DNA of 64,000 nt, taken from positions 96,841-160,840 of the forward strand of contig CACYHW010000011.1 in NCBI GenBank assembly GCA_902774335.1, given 5' to 3'. Positions within the stretch are counted from its first letter, which is position 1, and each line of letters opens with the position of its first letter. Below are positions 11,479 through 24,110 of the stretch, piece by piece. Below the pieces are notes generated by a model. That model did no database searches. It was not told the DNA's origin and saw nothing but the letters and a program-made list of their open reading frames with translations. This DNA comes from an uncultured Bacteroidales bacterium (GTDB lineage: Bacteria; Bacteroidota; Bacteroidia; Bacteroidales; Bacteroidaceae). The position numbers and the translations under genes are program-made.

Positions 11479-12675
11479 TTAAATCAAGCCCAATATCACT
11501 TTATAAGAGTGCACCTCATCCGGATCACCCAGCTCCTTACCCGGAGTGTCGGACAACTTAACGCACCTGTATACATGCTGGCGCGGGTTAACCTGGAACG
11601 TCTTAAGCTTCATAACGATGTTAAGAGGATCCACCGTTCCCACATCATTAGTCAAGTTGGTGCCAATTCCGAACGATACCCTGATGCGGCCCTCAAAGTA
11701 CTTCTGGATAGCCAGAGCGCGGTCAAAGTCAAGAGCATCGCTGAACACGATTGACTTTGTCATGGGGTCAATGTGGTATGATTCGTACTTGGCAATGATC
11801 TTGTCACCGAACTCGAACGGATCACCGCTGTCGTGACGAACGCCGTCGTACAGCTTAGCCATATCCAGCGAGAAGTTGCGCAGGAACACCTGAGTGGTAA
11901 AGCAGTCAGGCAGCATGGTACCCATGTTGCCGCCGTAAATCTCGGCCCAACGGCGCATAACGTAGTAGTTTGCCTCCTTGGGACCCATGAATGCGGCTGT
12001 CGCCATCATGAGCTCGTGCGCCATAGTGCCTATGGGCTTGAGGTTGGGACGTATGGACTGGTATTTCATTGCAAAATATACGGTCGACGAGCCGATAAAG
12101 TACTTGGCGTGACGTGTCAGGTACTCCGTAACATGATCCTCCACCTCATGTGAGTAGCGGCGGCGCATACCGAAGTTGGCAAACTTGAGCTGATTCTCGT
12201 TCGATATGGCGACCTTCTTCTCAAGCTGGCTGTCGATGTATGCCCAGTCGGGCTCAGTCTTCTCGTATATCTTGTAATAAACCTCTGATACAGTGCTCAG
12301 TATGGGTATCTCATAAAGGGTGACCTTGTATATCAGGTCCTTGGCCTCGATGTGCAGGTGTCCCTCCTCATCAAGCGAGATATCAATGATATCGGCATTG
12401 AAACGGAACCCCTTGAGCCACTCAAAGTAGCACTGAGGTATGAAATAGATATTGGAGAGGCACCAGTTGAACTCTTCATCGGTAAGGGCCAGCGTCTCCA
12501 GTTTCTTGAACTCCTTGCGCAACAGATCAACAAACTCCGGTGTGAATTTCATACCGTTGCGGTCATTGAAACAGAATGTGCCTATACCCTCCGGAGTTGT
12601 CCGTTGGTAATAGTATGACATGGAGAATTTGTAGAGGTCATTCTCCAGCATACTTTTTACAGTGGTGCTCTCCAT
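11479..12675 (-). CDS. pncB: Nicotinate phosphoribosyltransferase
   Basis: Converts nicotinate and PRPP to nicotinate mononucleotide in the NAD salvage (Preiss-Handler) pathway. The 398-residue length fits the PncB family. Recognisable segments are LENDLYKFSMSYYY at the N terminus, FANFGMRRRYSHEVED, the central GTMAHELMMA loop, and VRHDSGDPFEFG with SFGIGTNLTND, which build the phosphoribosyl site. It lies 7 bases downstream of a nicotinamidase gene in the same direction, so both salvage steps are encoded together. Confidence 0.96.
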   Translation of the reverse strand: MESTTVKSMLENDLYKFSMSYYYQRTTPEGIGTFCFNDRNGMKFTPEFVDLLRKEFKKLETLALTDEEFNWCLSNIYFIPQCYFEWLKGFRFNADIIDISLDEEGHLHIEAKDLIYKVTLYEIPILSTVSEVYYKIYEKTEPDWAYIDSQLEKKVAISNENQLKFANFGMRRRYSHEVEDHVTEYLTRHAKYFIGSSTVYFAMKYQSIRPNLKPIGTMAHELMMATAAFMGPKEANYYVMRRWAEIYGGNMGTMLPDCFTTQVFLRNFSLDMAKLYDGVRHDSGDPFEFGDKIIAKYESYHIDPMTKSIVFSDALDFDRALAIQKYFEGRIRVSFGIGTNLTNDVGTVDPLNIVMKLKTFQVNPRQHVYRCVKLSDTPGKELGDPDEVHSYKVILGLI

Positions 12676-12682
12676 AAAATCT

Positions 12683-13321
12683 TTATTTATAAATCTTTAT
12701 GTTGTTCTCGTTCATGTATGTAACAAGAGGCTCGTTGCTCTCGATCGATGCTACGCCCTCCAGGTAAACAGAAAGCTCAAAACCAACCTCATTGCTGAGT
12801 CTTACCAGGTTCTTGAGAGTTTCCAGAACGCAGTACTCGGCAGCGATACCGCATACAACAACCTTGTCACCCTTTACAAAGAGATCCTGGTCGTCGGCCT
12901 TGGTATTCTCAAACTGACCGTACTCCTCCTTGTCCTGAGCCATACCCTTGGGAAGGAACTTTACATTGTCAACGTCAATGTTGTCCAGGATTCCGTCGGG
13001 AAGAGCGGCGCCTACGGTGTAACGTACGCAGTGCTGAGGCCAGATACCGCCGTTAGCTTTGAATGAGCAGTGGTTCCATGGGTGCCAGTCAAGAGTAAAA
13101 TAGACCTTGTCGAACTTGGTAAGCACGTTCTTGATAGGCTCAACAACGCGGGTACCGTCGGTTGCGGGAAGGTTTCCGTCAATGAAATCCTTCTGGAGGT
13201 CCACTACGACCATAATGTTTGCGGGTTCACGGTTTGTCATAACTGTCTTCTTTTTGTTACCTGTGCAGGCAACCATTGCAATTACTGCAACTGCTGCAGC
13301 AAAAAACTTAAATACTTTCAT
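12683..13321 (-). CDS. Nicotinamidase (isochorismatase family) with lipoprotein signal
   Basis: Predicted to deamidate nicotinamide to nicotinate. PncA residues are all visible: catalytic Asp in VVDLQKDF, Lys in FLPKGM, Cys in GIAAEYC, and metal ligands in LDWHPWNH plus GIWPQHC. Unlike classical cytoplasmic PncA, it has an N-terminal lipoprotein signal, MKVFKFFAAAVAVIAMVACT, with the lipid cysteine at residue 19, so it should be exported and membrane-anchored. The mature domain is then of standard size. A TAAATTTG -7 box lies at 13361-13354. pncB follows after 7 bases. Function is well supported; location is inferred from the signal. Confidence 0.9.
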   Translation of the reverse strand: MKVFKFFAAAVAVIAMVACTGNKKKTVMTNREPANIMVVVDLQKDFIDGNLPATDGTRVVEPIKNVLTKFDKVYFTLDWHPWNHCSFKANGGIWPQHCVRYTVGAALPDGILDNIDVDNVKFLPKGMAQDKEEYGQFENTKADDQDLFVKGDKVVVCGIAAEYCVLETLKNLVRLSNEVGFELSVYLEGVASIESNEPLVTYMNENNIKIYK

Positions 13322-16651: not shown

Positions 16652-17566
16652 ATGACATTTACCGGAATTCTGTTCCTGATCATTGCGACCGTATGCGCCG
16701 CAATGTTCTCTGTCGCGTTCAAGATCTTTCATCGCAAGAACATCGATTCACATCAGGCGATATTCTTCAATTACCTGACAGCTTTTGTGATGGGTGTGCT
16801 TTTCTCACTTCACGGTGAGGTGGTTGTCAATCCCTTCAAGGCCAGTTGGCTGGTGCCCGTAATCATACTGGGATTCATTTTCATGGCCGGTATGGTCCTG
16901 CTCTCTGAGTCCACCCGTCGCGTTGGTGTAGCCATCTCCACAGTCTGCAGCCGTGCATCGATGGTTATACCGATCATTGTATCATATCTTCTGATCCAGG
17001 GCAGTGACAAGCCTAAATGGCTGCTTATATGCCTGGTTCTGGTTGCCATGACCCTTACCGTATGGACCGGAAAGCAGGAAAGCGGACATAGAATAACCCT
17101 GATGGACATCCTGGCACCGCTTTCCGTATTCCTGGCATTCGGCGCCAGCAACTCGTTCCTCAAGGTGCTTCAGCATAAGGTAACTGTGGCCGATACGGCT
17201 GCCGGACTCTCCCAGCAGGCCATCAACAGCGAGTTGTCGCTGGTTACCGCATCGGTATTCTTTGTGGCCATGGTCATTTGCTCCTACTCATTCTTTACCA
17301 AGGACGAGAGCGGCAAGCGCACCCCTATCCGGTTCAAGAACATTCTGGGAGGCGCAGCATTGGGCCTTATCAACTATTTCTGCACCTACACTCTGATGCT
17401 GGCCATGAAGACCATCGACTCCTCCCTGCTGTTCCCGCTCCATAACATCGGAATAGTTGCCATAGGAGCCTTGGTAGGCATGTGGGCATTCCATGAAAAG
17501 ATGAAACCGCACCAAATACTCGGAATGGTACTCGCTGCGGTCTCAATAGCCCTGCTCTGTATTTAA
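16652..17566 (+). CDS. EamA/DMT-family transporter
   Basis: Inner-membrane transporter of 304 residues with about ten hydrophobic segments arranged as two EamA repeats (for example LFLIIATVCAAMFSVAFKIF at the start and IGIVAIGALVGMWAFHEKM in the second repeat, a typical signature). Substrate cannot be read from the sequence. Members of this superfamily include amino-acid exporters and the riboflavin importer RibN. Its 3' end overlaps the converging FMN-riboswitch receptor gene by 4 bases, which makes flavin transport a possibility worth testing, but it shares its promoter with the upstream peptidase gene. Confidence 0.88.
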   Translation: MTFTGILFLIIATVCAAMFSVAFKIFHRKNIDSHQAIFFNYLTAFVMGVLFSLHGEVVVNPFKASWLVPVIILGFIFMAGMVLLSESTRRVGVAISTVCSRASMVIPIIVSYLLIQGSDKPKWLLICLVLVAMTLTVWTGKQESGHRITLMDILAPLSVFLAFGASNSFLKVLQHKVTVADTAAGLSQQAINSELSLVTASVFFVAMVICSYSFFTKDESGKRTPIRFKNILGGAALGLINYFCTYTLMLAMKTIDSSLLFPLHNIGIVAIGALVGMWAFHEKMKPHQILGMVLAAVSIALLCI

Positions 17567-20500
17567 TCAAATATCAGCTTTACGCCCAGCTGGAGGTACC
17601 AGCAGTTGGAGTTTGATTTATCCATATCGAAGGTCTTGGAAACAAGGCCTTCTTTATTTGTGGCCATTGTAAACTGCGGATATCCGTCGGCATCGGCACC
17701 CTTGTACTCAAGGATCTTGGCATTGTTGCAGGCCGATGGTGTTCTCATGACACCCCAGCTGCTGTTGATAAGGTTGCCTACGTTCATGATGTCGAGTGAC
17801 AGCTGCAGTGTCTCGTTGTTGCGCTTGGAGCCTCTCAGAGCGCCTACGTTGAAGTTCTGTGCCAGGTGCAGGTCAAAACGGTTGAGCCAGGGCATACGGG
17901 CTGCGTTTGCATCGGCATACTCACCCTTGTGCTTACTCAGATACTTGTCCTGGTTTACAAAGTTCCAGAAGGCCTGCTGCTGAGCCTCGGCAGTGAATGT
18001 GCCGTTGTCAACAAACTTGAGTTCATCCTTTGTGGCAGGTATGTAAATCAGGTCGTTATTGATTCCGTCGCCGTTCATGTCAGTGGTATAGACGTAGCTG
18101 TAAGTTCCGGCAGTGTAACCTGTGTAGAACAGACCTATCTCGGTGCTCATGAACTTGTTCTTGGAGTATCCCAGACGGTATGTTGCCATAGCAGTCAGCT
18201 TATCGGGAATAACATAGGCCGACGGGCGCAGAACCTGCTCGTTGGGGCTGTTCACGTTCACGTCGTTGCGCCATGCTGAGTTCAGTTGGGAGCCCTTCAT
18301 ATCCTGTACGGACATTGAAACCTGATGTATGTATGAGAGCTCGGTCTTGAGGCCATAGATAGGCTCAGCCTTCAGAGTACCGCCCAGAGACCAGCTGTAA
18401 CCCTTGTCGGTATTGCTTATCACCATGGCGCCGCCCGATTTTGATACAGTAGGCTGAACAGCGGCTATTCCCTTGTAGTTCACTCTGTTGTCGGCACCGT
18501 TAAAGCGCGGTGCGGCATCGTCGCAAATCTGGTTGTAGTTCTCTACGTAAACAGCGTTGATATCCTTGTTGTAGATACCCTCAACCGATACTGCCAGGGG
18601 GAATGCCAGTCCGTCGGGCTCATAGTCCACAGCCAGTGATGTCTTGAACACCTGGGGCAGTTTGAAGTCACCTGCAATACCGGTTATGGTTGTGTTGTTA
18701 AGCGTAGGATTGGGGTTGGCAGTCATGGACAGGCCCTGCTGTATCAGGTAGTTTCTGAGAGCCTCCTCGGTGTAGAGGAAGTTGTTCTGCAGGCCCTGCT
18801 GCATAGCGTTTGTGGGGTCCGATGACATCACGGTTCCCTGCAGCATACCGCTGCTGTTGGGGATTGTGGCAAAGAACACCAGGGGAATTCTGCCTGTAAA
18901 GAGGCCTGCACCACCGTGTACGGTAAGAGTATGTGCATCGTCCACATCCCAGTTGAATCCTACACGGGGTGAGAACTGCACGTTAGCCTTGGGCCAGCGG
19001 CCGTTGTCAATTACGGGAGCCTGATAGCCTGCGGGCACCTGACCGGGAGCATAGAAGTGGTTTGTCCAGTCCAGAGCCTTGAATGACTCGTTGGTTGTGA
19101 GCGGCTCATAGTACTGCATATGATCAGCTCTAAGACCGTAAGTGACAGTAAGGTTGTCGGTTATGTGTGATTCGGCCTGCAGGAATGCTGCTGTCTGACC
19201 GAACGATGTACGTGATGCGGGATCGTCAATGCCGTCGTATGTATATGTCATACCGAATGCGGCGGGAACGGCCTGATTGATAAAATCCTCAAGTGAGTTG
19301 TAACGGTAGTATCCCGTGCCGAACATACGGTAGTTGGTGGCACCCTTCTGGTACTGATAGCTCAGACCTGCTGTGATGGTGCTGTGAGCCAGTGTCCAAC
19401 GTATATGGTCACTGATATTATATGTACGTACATAGTTTCCTGTACCCTTTGTGAATGCCTCGCAGCCTGCGCTCATAAAGGCGTCATAGTCCTTAAGGAT
19501 ATCGATATGGGGGAAATCTGCTGACTCCGTTCCTCTCAGGTTGCTTACGTCCGATATGCTTGCCGAGAACTTGTTGCTCATGCGGCCGCTCAGACGGCTG
19601 TTCAATTCGGCTACTGCCGACCAGGCATTGTCGTTCTGGGTATAGCAGTTGTTGCGGAATACGTATCCGCTCTTTGATACTCGGTCATTTTCAGTCGTGG
19701 CACCTACTGTGCTCTTTCCGCTGGGTGTGAACCACTGCTTGTTGCCGGTCCAGTTGTAACGCAGCATCAGGTTGTGGTTGTTATTGATGTTCCAGTCAAT
19801 GCGGGCCAGCATCTTGGTGTTTGTCTGGTCGCCGTTCGAGAGGTCATAGCTACCTGCGTCGTAACCGTAGGCCTTGAGGGCAGTTGCGAACTGCTCCATA
19901 TCGGCCGCTGTAACACGGCTTATCTTGCCTGCTGCATCGCCTACACCATCCTCTGAGAGTTTGTACTCGGTTATCGGACTAGGTGTGGTAACATACTCAG
20001 CATTAACAAAATAGAACAGCTTGTCTTTAAGTATCGGACCACCCAAGGTGAATCCTACTGTGGTGTGGCTGCTGCTTACCCTGTTGCCCAGGTCTATTCC
20101 GTCAATCTTGTTGCCGCGCAGTTTCTCGTTATGAAAATAGGTGTATGCGGTACCCTTGAAGGTGTTTGTTCCTGACTTGGTGATTACGTTGATTCCGCCT
20201 CCGGTAAAGTTGCTCTGACGTACGTCGTACGGGGCAATTGCAATCTGCATCTCCTCTACGGCATCTATAGAGATAGGTGTGCCGGCGCCGGGGAGATCGG
20301 CCGAAAGACCGAAGCTGTTGTTCATTATAGCGCCGTCTATTGTGAGCGTTGTAACGCGGCCGTCACGGCCTGCCATTGTGTTTTCAATGCCGCTGTAGGG
20401 TGACAGACGTGTGTAGTCCAGCATGCTGCGGTTAACTGACGGCAGCATGGACATGCTCTCCCTGTTCACGTTGTATATCTGTCCGGTGCGGGTTTCGTTG

Positions 20501-20991
20501 AAGTGTGTGCTCTCTCCGCGGATGGTAATGGTGGGGATGTTCACGTTATCCTCCTTGAGGACTGTGTTGAAGTTGTAATCCTTACCCAATGAAAGTATCA
20601 CATTGTCGTAAGCCACCTCCTGATAGCCTAGGAATGAGATCTTTACAAGGTAATTGCCGGGTTTGAGGCCTGACAGCGAGTAGATACCGAAACGGTTGGT
20701 TACCGTGCCGTAGAATGCACCGGTCTCGTTGTTGGTTACCAGGACTGCAGCTGCCTGAAGCGGCTCACCCTCGGAATCCTTTACGGAACCGCTGATGGTT
20801 GCTGTGGTGTTCTGGGCCGATGCCTCTGTCCAGGCAAACAGCAATAAAAAAAGGCACGCAAACTTGAAGAGTCTGAATGACACACTGCCGGCCAAAGCCG
20901 AAAAACTGAACTCGGATGTCTTGTTCATGCCCTTGGCACAAACAAGTTTTGCAGGCGCGATAACGCCTGACAGGACTGTTTTGATACTCAT
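17563..20991 (-). CDS. Oar-like TonB-dependent receptor under an FMN riboswitch
   Basis: Outer-membrane receptor of 1142 residues. After a long leader with a hydrophobic core (FKFACLFLLLFAWTEASAQ) comes a carboxypeptidase-regulatory-like beta domain (about residues 62-150, GSVKDSEGEPLQAAAV), then a plug (GRDGRVTTLTIDGAIMNNS; GGGINVITKSGTNTFKGT) and a long beta-barrel, as in Oar-type receptors. No SusD partner is present. The longer reading frame from 21006 starts inside the riboswitch GGATGGGAG motif and is not a real start. I choose ATG 20991, with GGAG 8 bases upstream; ATG 20928 is a possible alternative. Control by FMN suggests uptake of riboflavin or a related flavin. Confidence 0.9.
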   Translation of the reverse strand: MSIKTVLSGVIAPAKLVCAKGMNKTSEFSFSALAGSVSFRLFKFACLFLLLFAWTEASAQNTTATISGSVKDSEGEPLQAAAVLVTNNETGAFYGTVTNRFGIYSLSGLKPGNYLVKISFLGYQEVAYDNVILSLGKDYNFNTVLKEDNVNIPTITIRGESTHFNETRTGQIYNVNRESMSMLPSVNRSMLDYTRLSPYSGIENTMAGRDGRVTTLTIDGAIMNNSFGLSADLPGAGTPISIDAVEEMQIAIAPYDVRQSNFTGGGINVITKSGTNTFKGTAYTYFHNEKLRGNKIDGIDLGNRVSSSHTTVGFTLGGPILKDKLFYFVNAEYVTTPSPITEYKLSEDGVGDAAGKISRVTAADMEQFATALKAYGYDAGSYDLSNGDQTNTKMLARIDWNINNNHNLMLRYNWTGNKQWFTPSGKSTVGATTENDRVSKSGYVFRNNCYTQNDNAWSAVAELNSRLSGRMSNKFSASISDVSNLRGTESADFPHIDILKDYDAFMSAGCEAFTKGTGNYVRTYNISDHIRWTLAHSTITAGLSYQYQKGATNYRMFGTGYYRYNSLEDFINQAVPAAFGMTYTYDGIDDPASRTSFGQTAAFLQAESHITDNLTVTYGLRADHMQYYEPLTTNESFKALDWTNHFYAPGQVPAGYQAPVIDNGRWPKANVQFSPRVGFNWDVDDAHTLTVHGGAGLFTGRIPLVFFATIPNSSGMLQGTVMSSDPTNAMQQGLQNNFLYTEEALRNYLIQQGLSMTANPNPTLNNTTITGIAGDFKLPQVFKTSLAVDYEPDGLAFPLAVSVEGIYNKDINAVYVENYNQICDDAAPRFNGADNRVNYKGIAAVQPTVSKSGGAMVISNTDKGYSWSLGGTLKAEPIYGLKTELSYIHQVSMSVQDMKGSQLNSAWRNDVNVNSPNEQVLRPSAYVIPDKLTAMATYRLGYSKNKFMSTEIGLFYTGYTAGTYSYVYTTDMNGDGINNDLIYIPATKDELKFVDNGTFTAEAQQQAFWNFVNQDKYLSKHKGEYADANAARMPWLNRFDLHLAQNFNVGALRGSKRNNETLQLSLDIMNVGNLINSSWGVMRTPSACNNAKILEYKGADADGYPQFTMATNKEGLVSKTFDMDKSNSNCWYLQLGVKLIFD

Positions 20992-20996
20992 AAATT

Positions 20997-21099
20997 CTTC
21001 TCCCATCCAGACTATACTGTCGGTACCGTAATCGCAACGGTTCGGCCTTTCGGCTCGCGGACTTTACCGCCGGTCGGGGAATTGCGCCCCACCCTGAAG
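20997..21099 (-). ncRNA. FMN riboswitch (RFN element)
   Basis: On the minus strand the aptamer reads CTTCAGGGTG, then CAATTCCCCGACCGGCGGT, AGTCCGCGAGC, two variable stems (P4 GCCGAAAGGC; P5 around CCGTTGCGATTACGG), CCGACAGTATAGTCTGG and ATGGGAGAAG. These are the conserved RFN blocks, and CTTC/GAAG closes P1. The ATG of the receptor is 5 bases past P1. A further hairpin, CAGGCG-ttatcg-CGCCTG, lies within the first codons (about 20955-20972). No run of T follows, so control is probably at translation. Confidence 0.96.
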
Positions 21100-21173
21100 T
21101 TTTACGCCTGCAAATTTCCGCTTTCTGCACGACTCTGCAAAGCATTTTCTGCTAAAAAAGATAAATGTTTTAG

Positions 21174-21390
21174 CCAGTTTACTCCGCCTGGACATCAGTA
21201 TTCGGGAGACGACGTTACGGGGCTATTCCGCACCCCTCCGGACCCTAAACGCCGAACTCGTCCTTATCGTCCCCTACGGGGCCGAACGTTCCTCAAACAA
21301 GCGGCGTTCTTAACGGGATCCTCCAGGGCGCTCCACTCACGCCCCTCCACTGACGCTCCCGAATACTGATATCCAGGCTCCGTAAACTGG
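21174..21390 (-). repeat. Palindromic element F1, copy A
   Basis: A 217-base element with imperfect 35-base terminal inverted repeats. The left arm starts CCAGTTTACTCCGCCTGGAC at 21174; the right arm ends at 21390 and differs from the complement at four positions. The interior, on the minus strand, shares blocks such as GGATCCCGTTAAGAACG, GGCCCCG.AGGGGAC and CGTTTAGGGTCCG with copy B at 22068. The two copies are in opposite orientation around the toxin-antitoxin pair. No ORF is plausible inside. Confidence 0.8.
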
Positions 21391-21419
21391 AATGCCACAC
21401 GCACCCAGCATCCTTTTTC

Positions 21420-21450
21420 TTGTTTTTTTCTCTCAAAAACAATATATTTG
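21420..21450 (+). promoter_or_regulatory. Toxin-antitoxin promoter
   Basis: TTG (21420-21422), 20 bases, TATATTTG (21443-21450), 29 bases before the antitoxin ATG. Confidence 0.6.
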
Positions 21451-21479
21451 TCATACAATTAATTATTTGACAGAATTAT

Positions 21480-21707
21480 ATGAAAAACATCAAAAAAGAA
21501 GTTTGTGAACCGGCAATACCTTATGCTATAAATGCCGGCAATAGAGGTATGTTTGCAAAGACGACAGTTCAACACAATCCCTACTCCATTGAAGAAATAC
21601 ATCAAATGGTTGCTGAAGGCGAAAAACAGTTTGCTTCGGGTCAATGGCAGGACAGCAAAGAAATGTTCTTGGAAATAGATGAGGCTTTAGCCAAAGAAAA
21701 ACACTAA
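21480..21707 (+). CDS. Putative antitoxin of a ParE/RelE-type pair
   Basis: A 75-residue acidic, helical protein (C-terminal half IEEIHQMVAEGEKQFASGQW) directly upstream of a toxin-like gene, with a 12-base gap. The order antitoxin-toxin is the usual one for ParDE and RelBE loci. I see no standard ribbon-helix-helix or Phd motif in the N terminus, which is short and cysteine/proline-containing. The antitoxin call therefore rests on size, position and the partner. The pair lies between two inverted F1 elements, which fits a mobile or recently arrived cassette. Confidence 0.7.
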   Translation: MKNIKKEVCEPAIPYAINAGNRGMFAKTTVQHNPYSIEEIHQMVAEGEKQFASGQWQDSKEMFLEIDEALAKEKH

Positions 21708-21719
21708 ACTACCTTTTTA

Positions 21720-22049
21720 ATGAGAGTAAGATGGAACAAGCAGTCCAAGGAACAACTAATCCGGGCTGCAAGTTACATCCGTCATGAATTCGGTCAGGAA
21801 TCAATGAACGATTTTATGGCGGAGATGAAGCGTACAAATAGACTTCTTGATAAGAACCCTCATTTGGGTCAAGTTGAACCATTATTGTCAGACCATCCAT
21901 CCAAATACAGAAGTATTGTGGTTTGCAGTTATAACAAAATAGTTTACCGTATTGTAGATAAACACATAGAGGTGACAGCACTTTGGGACACCCGAAGAGA
22001 ACCCAACAATCAAATAGAGCAAACCATCAATCAATATCCCAACAAATAA
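21720..22049 (+). CDS. ParE/RelE-superfamily toxin
   Basis: A 109-residue protein of the plasmid-stabilisation toxin superfamily. Family features are the N-terminal MRVRWNKQSKEQLIRAASYI helix with paired lysines and arginines, the FMAEMKRTNRLLDKNPHLGQ middle, the YRSIVVCSYNKIVYRIVDKH strands and the C-terminal VTALWDTRREPN motif. ParE members poison DNA gyrase and RelE members cleave mRNA at the ribosome; the sequence does not say which applies here. The antitoxin lies immediately upstream. Confidence 0.88.
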   Translation: MRVRWNKQSKEQLIRAASYIRHEFGQESMNDFMAEMKRTNRLLDKNPHLGQVEPLLSDHPSKYRSIVVCSYNKIVYRIVDKHIEVTALWDTRREPNNQIEQTINQYPNK

Positions 22050-22355: not shown

Positions 22356-24110
22356 TCATTTCAAGTCAATTTTAAGCTGGAGCTCATCAAGCTGAGACTG
22401 GTCGAGCGGACCGGGAGCATCGAGCATGACGTCGCGACCGGAGTTGTTCTTGGGGAACGCTATGCAGTCGCGGATGCTGTCAAGCTTGGCAAAGATGCTG
22501 ACAAAGCGGTCCAGTCCGAATGCCAGACCACCGTGAGGAGGTGCACCGAACTTGAAGGCGTTCATAAGGAATCCGAACTTGGCCTGAGCCTGCTCAGGTG
22601 TAAAGCCCAGAATCTTGAATATGGTAGCCTGCAGCTTGCTGTCGTGGATACGGATAGAACCGCCACCAACCTCAATACCGTTGATAACCATATCATAAGC
22701 ATTGGCGCGAACGCTTGCAGGATCAGTATCAAGCAGAGGAATATCCTCAGGCTTAGGTGATGTGAACGGATGGTGCATAGCCATCAGACGGTTCTCTTCA
22801 TCACTCCACTCGTACATGGGGAAGTCAATCACCCACAGGCACTTGAACTTGTTCTTGTCACGAAGACCAAGCTCATCGGCCACCTTAAGGCGGAGCTCGG
22901 AGAGCTGCTTGCGGGTCTTCATGGCGTCATCACCCGAGAGGATCAGTATAAGGTCACCTGCCTCAGCGTTCATGGCAGCCTTAAGCTGCTGCAGGACCTC
23001 CTGGCTATAGAACTTGTCGACCGATGACTTGACGCTGCCGTCAGCCTCAACGCGTGCGTAAACCATACCCTTGGCACCAATCTGAGGACGCTTAACATAC
23101 TCTGTAAGAGCATCAATCTGCTTGCGGGTGTAAGTAGCGGCACCCTTGGCGCAGATACCACCTATGTAAGCGGCACTGTCAAACACACCGAATCCATAAC
23201 CCTTGAGAACATCCATCAGTTCTACAAAGTGCATGTCAAAACGAAGGTCCGGTTTGTCACTGCCGTAGTATTTCATTGCGTCCTGCCAGGTCATACGCTG
23301 GAAGGGCTCTTTAAAGTCAATGTTAAGGATGCTCTTGAACAGATGCTTGGCCATTGCCTCGAATATCTGGAGGATATCCTCCTGCTCCACGAATGACATC
23401 TCGCAGTCAATCTGAGTGAACTCAGGCTGGCGGTCAGCGCGCAGGTCCTCGTCGCGGAAGCACTTGGCAATCTGGAAGTAACGGTCAAAACCTGATACCA
23501 TAAGCAGCTGCTTAAGGATCTGGGGGCTCTGAGGTAGAGCATAGAACTGACCCGGGTTCATGCGTGAGGGAACCACAAAGTCACGTGCGCCCTCAGGGGT
23601 CGAGTTGATAAGAATAGGTGTCTCAACCTCCATGAAGTTCAGGTCGTCCAGGAACTTGCGGATCTCCATAACCATCTTGTGGCGCAGTTCCAGGTTCTTG
23701 CGGACACACTGGCGGCGCAGGTCAAGATAGCGGTACTTCATGCGAAGGTCATCGCCGCCGTCGGTCTCATCCTCGATTGTAAAGGGAGGCGTATCGGCCG
23801 CATTGATAACGTTCAGGGAGTTAACCAGAATCTCAATGTCACCTGTAGGAATCTTGGAGTTCTTGCTTGAACGCTCGCTCACCTTACCGGTAATCTGGAT
23901 TACGTACTCGCGTCCCAGACGGCTGGCCTGCTCGCAAAGTGCGGCGTCGGTAGCATCGTCAAACACAAGCTGGGTTATGCCGTAGCGGTCACGCAGGTCA
24001 ACAAAGACCATACCACCCATTTTTCTAACTCTCTGCACCCATCCTGCCAGTGTCACGGTACTGCCGGCATCGGTCAGACGGAGCTCTCCACAAGTCTTGC
24101 TTCTAAACAT
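22356..24110 (-). CDS. aspS: Aspartyl-tRNA synthetase
   Basis: Charges tRNA-Asp. The 584-residue length fits the bacterial type with the GAD insertion. Order: N-terminal OB-fold anticodon domain ([20 protein letters not shown]), class II motif 2 ([18 protein letters not shown]), GAD domain, and motif 3 (GLAFGLDRF) near the C terminus. It is monocistronic, with a TAAATTTG box at 24144-24137 and a terminator formed against repeat F1. The stop codon lies in an F5 repeat. Confidence 0.98.

Follow-up and report, generated by a model that had tools for sequence, protein, structure and literature searches.

Outer-membrane receptors for vitamins can stand under riboswitch control: cobalamin riboswitches control BtuB-type vitamin receptors. 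In Bacteroides thetaiotaomicron, the thiamine receptor OMthi (BT2390) lies under a thiamine pyrophosphate (TPP) riboswitch and was tested by deletion, according to the available portion of PMC5613172. The targets of flavin mononucleotide (FMN) riboswitches given in the accessible part of Sun et al. 2013 (PMC3766115) are riboflavin biosynthesis (rib) enzymes and riboflavin transporters. FMN regulons are reported there for all groups studied but Bacteroidaceae, Mycobacteriaceae and Cyanobacteria, and the main text, to the extent that it is accessible, contains neither "TonB" nor "outer membrane". The riboflavin transporters RibU, RibXY, PnuX, RibN, ImpX, RfnT and RibZ also take up flavin, and no outer-membrane receptor is among them in the partial texts of PMC6593275 and PMC4418817. 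A vitamin riboswitch before a receptor is already known for cobalamin and thiamine; no flavin case, either FMN-riboswitch-controlled or a dedicated outer-membrane flavin receptor, was found in searches of full-text literature that covered few subscription papers, so earlier notice elsewhere is possible. Here we describe an FMN riboswitch placed directly before an Oar-like TonB-dependent receptor gene in a 64,000-nucleotide stretch (the window; positions 96,841 to 160,840 of contig CACYHW010000011.1, assembly GCA_902774335.1) from an uncultured Bacteroidales bacterium of the Bacteroidaceae.

This locus resembles other RF00050 riboswitches in aptamer sequence and fold and in the control of flavin supply, and differs from those reported before rib enzymes and transporters in that its target is a receptor. 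As far as the available portion of PMC5613172 goes, it is like OMthi in having a TonB-dependent receptor behind a vitamin riboswitch, in its phylum and in a trade-off between biosynthesis and uptake; the OMthi case concerns thiamine and was tested by deletion, whereas the present one concerns flavin and is known from sequence. The cobalamin/BtuB systems are alike in having a riboswitch-controlled vitamin receptor and differ in ligand and aptamer. The receptor, here called class A, shares the domain make-up of Oar-like receptors, for which we know of no flavin substrate, and most of its riboswitch-linked members have an additional extension at the N-terminus. The main elements, in window coordinates, are:

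20991–21105, minus strand: FMN riboswitch aptamer (RFN element), full length, from the RF00050 match and the alignment of relatives
17563–20991, minus strand: Oar-like TonB-dependent receptor (class A), 1142 amino acids, from Pfam, an AlphaFold model and PDB fold matches

We confirmed the element as an FMN riboswitch. The window aptamer matched RF00050 in cmscan with 100 bits (gathering score 66.2) over the full model (1–138, not cut off), and it was the sole match in a genome-wide RF00050 search (2.35-Mb genome, 87% complete). A preliminary description of this DNA had placed a complete RFN aptamer directly before the receptor, and the Rfam FMN covariance-model search on the minus strand that it had suggested gave a significant match (E 5.4e-22); the aptamer in fact overlaps the receptor's start codon. 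The element it had delimited stands, with the outer coordinate (21099) falling inside the aptamer, 6 bases from its 5' end (21105). In an alignment of 32 related aptamers, standard pairs occupied 91.9% of pair cells. Compensatory double changes occurred in 9 of 28 pairs (shuffled mean 3.7), and 18 cells were doubly changed versus 6.1 in shuffles. Further pair types numbered 15 versus 12.9 shuffled, a number that 82 of 500 shuffles also attained, and the P1 helix was paired in just 79.8% of cells. These counts used the Rfam structure; the RNAalifold structure differed, and model R1 carries the RNAalifold version.

The receptor has a CarboxypepD_reg domain followed by an OMP_b-brl_4 barrel, the Oar-like make-up. 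Its AlphaFold model (predicted local distance difference test (pLDDT) 80.2, predicted template modelling score (pTM) 0.76; residues 1–61 under pLDDT 50) best matched 4zgv, FusA (E 1.5e-29). There were 391 PDB matches at E ≤ 0.001, and all 50 listed were TonB-dependent receptors. As modelled, the protein has the overall fold of plugged outer-membrane barrels. These domains and matches agree with the Oar-type TonB-dependent receptor named earlier. We found no match to the receptor in NCBIfam and no Pfam Plug hit at E 0.001. An Oar-like relative (L354) does have a Plug hit, so limited profile sensitivity is likely behind the missing one.

We surveyed 37 genomes of the genus. The FMN riboswitch occurred in 26, one copy each, and the gene behind it was a receptor in every copy: 21 were class A, one of them (L148) called from 39 residues at a contig end, and 5 were an unlike receptor, class B, of about 750 amino acids. 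Lumazine synthase RibH (PF00885) was found in 0 of the 37 genomes, the window's included, while PF00885 matched 14 of 14 well-known genomes used as a positive control. FMN/flavin adenine dinucleotide (FAD) synthase RibF (PF06574) was present in 36 of 37. RibH and RibF were the only rib enzymes searched in the genus; RibF without other rib enzymes is an auxotrophy rule given in the accessible part of PMC6593275. With RibH absent and RibF retained, the members of the genus are probable riboflavin auxotrophs: these uncultured gut-type bacteria appear unable to make vitamin B2. The absence of a nearby rib gene, pointed out in the preliminary description, thus extends further, as RibH was found nowhere in the genome or the genus.

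A sample of the family gave the same association. RibH was found in 126 of 151 genomes, and 12 genomes had the riboswitch: the 10 with a receptor behind it all lacked RibH, and the 2 with ribBA behind it both had RibH. The best single case is a contrast within one further genus of this family, represented by 6 genomes: two carry class B and lack RibH, two combine RibH with a riboswitch before ribBA, and two contain RibH with no riboswitch match.

At the level of the order, FMN riboswitches were found in 84 of 393 genomes. We examined 82 of 85 table rows, dropping the window's own, one at a contig end and a weak one. The survey of receptors behind RFN elements that had been proposed for Bacteroidota thus gave, besides the 26 of 26 in the genus, 36 class B receptors among 79 classified first genes, with 31 ribD, 11 ribBA/ribB and 1 class A-like gene that runs off its contig; 3 of the 82 loci had no classifiable first gene. 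The order class B receptors, from 15 families, were 30–45% identical to those of the genus. On a class B tree, 39 riboswitch-linked rows and 15 others (5 of these being second receptors of the same riboswitch loci) were separated by two label changes, against 13.3 in shuffles. Class B is, we infer, the receptor usually placed under FMN control in this order, and it is a testable candidate family of outer-membrane flavin receptors. In a phylum sample of 395 genomes, 29 had the riboswitch, among them the window's own genome; the remaining 28 yielded 29 loci, whose readable first genes were ribB- or ribD-like and none receptor-like, judged by eye from start sequences with several loci unclear.

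Some order loci carry a second receptor, sometimes Oar-like, besides class B. We extended 37 order loci, 3 of them too short for later genes. An Oar-like gene followed class B in 6, and a type I phosphodiesterase/nucleotide pyrophosphatase homologue was present in 9, one a fragment and 7 of them checked with Pfam. This enzyme after class B suggests FAD scavenging in some loci. Against PDB sequences at E 0.01, class B matched only 6v81 (2.6e-08) and 9c4o (1.4e-07), in the plug region, and it had weak similarity to BtuB models in NCBIfam, far below the cut-off. The title of 9c4o names pyrroloquinoline quinone, a redox cofactor; this partial match to YncD/PqqU does not imply the same substrate.

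The two receptor classes occupy one locus in the genus, where most loci of both classes are flanked by the same genes:

22356–24110, minus strand: aspS-like gene, upstream marker of the locus, presumably aspartyl-tRNA synthetase (named from its sequence)
16652–17566, plus strand: EamA-family transporter (Pfam EamA), convergent neighbour of the receptor

Among the five class B loci, L097 and L249 show both neighbours, L250 the aspS-like gene, and L096 and L251 EamA. EamA follows the receptor in 20 of the 23 loci that reach that far, with another frame intervening in L249; the exceptions are L241, L250 and L253, and other upstream genes occur in L101 and L245. The aspS tree (20 rows, 3 class B) forced at least two class changes and the EamA tree (21 rows, 4 class B) at least three. 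Shuffled class labels required no more changes (500 of 500). Because the classes are mixed on the linked-gene trees and shuffles do no worse, receptor class does not follow lineage. All 9 genus members in the family sample had exactly one class (7 A, 2 B; presence thresholds 1e-100 and 1e-40). Receptor class has been exchanged several times at one fixed locus, making the genus a natural experiment with two receptor classes exchanged under one riboswitch.

We next considered the history of class A on a tree of 110 rows, from which 11 rows had been removed beforehand as probable duplicates of included genomes. The 19 riboswitch-linked rows and G070 formed one supported clade, with G050 and G088 as sister. 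The receptors of G050 and G088 lie at another locus without a riboswitch; in G070 the receptor stands directly behind the aspS-like gene without one, which reads as loss. Among the 13 closest class A relatives, 11 had the riboswitch, and the contigs of the other two begin at or inside the gene. No FMN riboswitch was found before distant homologues in 67 loci (28–42% identity, L026–L092) or in 17 further ones; a few of all these contigs lack the upstream region. Two weak hits before class A homologues (E 0.055 and 0.57) were discarded. On a 67-row tree, five of the six order-sample Oar-like genes fell in one clade and one elsewhere, all apart from the genus clade. Unless losses are invoked, FMN riboswitches therefore acquired Oar-like receptors on at least three occasions.

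In most riboswitch-linked class A proteins, some 39 additional residues precede the protein's own signal peptide (L135 has none), while riboswitch-free homologues start near it. In the window these regions, with two hairpins inside the reading frame, are:

20875–20991, minus strand: N-terminal extension, codons 1–39, before the receptor's own signal peptide (alignment with homologues)
20815–20874, minus strand: probable signal peptide, codons 40–59 (...TEASA/Q), by eye
20952–20969, minus strand: hairpin H1, 7 pairs, 4-base loop
20920–20946, minus strand: hairpin H2, 12 pairs, 3-base loop

The signal-peptide region has low confidence and is partly helical in the AlphaFold model. The first ~24 codons of the extension resemble the signal-peptide codons of class B, in an alignment that continues through both hairpins; in one A–B pair, 19 of 20 bases agreed (score 35 versus a best of 26 in 200 shuffles). 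This resemblance points to a fusion in which class A was placed behind the class B leader and first codons. Class A seems to have replaced class B behind the same RNA with ~24 codons kept, and class B is probably the older occupant behind the genus riboswitch.

The start codon lies at the aptamer itself. The mechanical frame (21006–17563, minus strand, 1147 amino acids) begins with an ATG inside the aptamer, 15 bases upstream of 20991. The aptamer's last base is the A of the ATG at 20991–20989, and this is the likelier start because all 26 riboswitch loci of the genus have an ATG at −2 to +1 relative to the end of the aptamer. On the other side is a further element:

21111–21141, minus strand: promoter-like element TTTG-N19-GAAATTTG, by eye, ending 5 bases before the aptamer

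The Bacteroides-type promoter consensus is TTTG...TAnnTTTG. The element has one mismatch to it and is not an exact match; exact sites are enriched in the window (5 versus 0.81 expected). With this element right before the aptamer, the 5' leader would be nearly all aptamer. No terminator-like site was found at 20700–21700. With the ATG abutting the aptamer as well, the window leader appears to have little or no space for a separate expression platform. Estimates for the P1 duplex ranged from −2.9 to −7.0 kcal/mol in the 26 genus leaders. A conserved anti-aptamer pairing of the first codons with the aptamer was sought in 10 leader folds by eye and in 26 duplex predictions, and none common to A and B was found.

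Some leaders outside the genus are arranged differently. In four class B leaders from two other genera, the chosen start codon lies ~85–100 bases beyond the aptamer (for L008, the more upstream candidate of two); judged by eye, part of the leader can pair with the first codons instead. L004, L008, L009, L010 and L336 share a stretch, GCCTTG.ATTGT.TGCC-like, downstream of the aptamer (by eye), which can pair with the class B first codons in the folds viewed. These five leaders apparently hold a platform differing from that of the window's genus. In another family, f63 (L268, L311, L316), the class B start likewise abuts the aptamer, and L311 and L316 have hairpins early in the reading frame.

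A 4-base-loop hairpin starts between +22 and +29 in 26 of 26 genus loci, with 7–8 pairs in 25 and 5 pairs in L135, and a second hairpin follows it in most folds. We aligned 18 class A rows (14 distinct). Standard pairs filled 97.7% of cells, and in 6 of 19 pairs both partners had changed, against a shuffled mean of 2.3, with none of 500 shuffles reaching 6; further pair types numbered 14, lower than the 17.9 of shuffles. In 26 rows of both classes (22 distinct), standard pairs filled 89.2% of cells, 12 pairs were doubly changed (shuffled mean 6.4, 0 of 500), and covariation was 0.420 versus 0.255 shuffled, with slid controls at ≤46.4% of cells and ≤0.146; kinship of the aligned sequences inflates these compensatory-change counts. 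Fold z-scores of the first 75 bases in 12 of the 26 riboswitch-linked genes were −3.89, −1.81, −0.01, −2.11, −2.10, −3.77, −4.25, −0.86, −1.65, −2.40, −1.97 and −1.75; in 8 control genes they were −0.59, −0.97, 1.12, −1.72, −0.43, 0.15, −2.16 and −0.10. The pairing persists across amino-acid changes and both receptor classes, which argues for selection on the RNA. The hairpins are a candidate part of the switch within the reading frame, and the regulatory RNA probably extends into the receptor gene. We favour a role in holding +1 to +20 open while P1 is open. RNA structure within the gene seems to have outlived the receptor exchange.

We consider it highly probable, overall, that the bacterium is a riboflavin auxotroph in which FMN represses translation of a TonB-dependent flavin receptor, here an Oar-like one fused behind a class B leader. 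Under FMN shortage, the weak P1 helix would open and free the start codon; the receptor would then be made and flavin imported with TonB energy, and RibF would convert it to FMN and FAD. When FMN is plentiful, P1 would be stabilised and pair the bases just before the AUG, blocking initiation. Class B would have stood first behind the riboswitch, and most of the genus would later have gained an Oar-like receptor fused behind the class B leader and first codons. An FMN-controlled receptor for flavin uptake had been proposed in the preliminary description. The proposal gains support from the missing RibH with RibF kept and from the 26 of 26 adjacency, and further backing from class B in 36 of 79 order loci, the confinement of receptor-type riboswitches to RibH-less genomes in the family, and the pyrophosphatases in some loci. 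Flavin uptake under FMN control is well supported, and transport itself is what we infer. A plausible extension, with the balance slightly against it, is a movable cassette of aptamer and ~24 codons in which P1 clamps the start, hairpins in the reading frame complete the switch and two flavin receptors have been exchanged repeatedly. There would be no platform between aptamer and gene; the hairpins might, for example, keep the start window open or hold the ribosome, and the old signal-peptide codons would persist as the N-terminal extension, kept for the RNA fold rather than the protein.

The switch might respond to FMN while the receptor imports another substrate needed at low flavin, such as an iron chelate. 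Among solved structures, the closest folds are mainly receptors for iron or siderophores, though this is expected for any receptor of this fold, and riboflavin addition lowers tonB1 and many iron-uptake genes in Vibrio cholerae (available parts of PMC5816637 and PMC6041382); those parts describe no FMN riboswitch before a receptor. Import of another substrate fits poorly with receptor-type riboswitches going with RibH absence in the family sample, with two unlike receptors substituting for each other in a RibH-less genus, and with nucleotide pyrophosphatases in some related loci, and we regard it as improbable. A version of the flavin account has a flavin nucleotide (FAD or FMN) as substrate, with a periplasmic or surface pyrophosphatase trimming FAD in related loci. 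The pyrophosphatase genes after receptors in 9 of 37 extended order loci suggest it; at the window locus none was seen, and sequence does not tell the substrate, so we hold this version tentatively, with some doubt. Variant aptamers exist in other riboswitch classes, and the window aptamer could be a drifted variant sensing another ligand. Its full-length match well above the gathering score and 62 columns invariant across 32 aptamers, two of which precede ribBA, make this very improbable indeed.

Several observations weigh against FMN-controlled flavin uptake as set out above. The auxotrophy call draws on RibH and RibF, in a genus where only 8 of 37 genomes are ≥90% complete with ≤5% contamination. 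The family genomes are related, with the riboswitch genomes falling in three genera, so that the 10 of 10 are not independent cases. No riboswitch match was obtained in 11 of 37 genus genomes, and three of these, G050, G070 and G088 (96–98% complete), lack RibH and yet retain a class A receptor whose locus is free of the riboswitch. Among the 151 family genomes, 46 contain class A homologues, in many cases alongside RibH; class A as a whole is therefore not a flavin family. On the class B tree, one riboswitch row (L342) groups with the rows that are not riboswitch-linked, and the branch of one control row is absurd. The A–B similarity of first codons was weaker in other pairs tried. As hairpin background, 10 of 121 frames had a tetraloop stem of ≥7 pairs, a set with mechanical start codons that possibly includes some receptor genes. 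L135 and L005 found no support from the fold z-scores, and L135 was wrongly placed in the 26-row hairpin alignment.

Neighbouring features were also recorded. The EamA neighbour had no NCBIfam match at E 0.001; that it is the inner-membrane (riboflavin) partner is a guess. The stretch separating the receptor from the aspS-like gene contains a ParE-like toxin gene (21720–22049) and, beside it, two inverted repeats of 35 bases (21174–21208/21356–21390) and 56 bases (22068–22123/22242–22297), 88–89% complementary, which look like small mobile elements. Some genus members have additional genes separating the aspS-like gene from the riboswitch: in L249 (4143–5741) these are a sigma-70-like gene and two small frames that gave no Pfam hit, and frames of similar size occur in L254, L257 and L259. 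Rfam searches of ten homologous receptor loci gave an FMN riboswitch before ribBA (L233), one SAM-II, one FopS small RNA and three tRNAs; the SAM-II match (L031:5858–5917, minus strand) lies on the strand opposite to an adjacent Oar-like receptor gene. In L222–L226, from other family genomes, relatives of class B and class A stand near one another and near lipoprotein-like genes, the class B relative being riboswitch-free, so the classes are linked there too. Next to the locus, at 11479–13321 of the window, a gene taken to be NAPRT-like and an isochorismatase-family, nicotinamidase-like gene form a possible niacin salvage pair.

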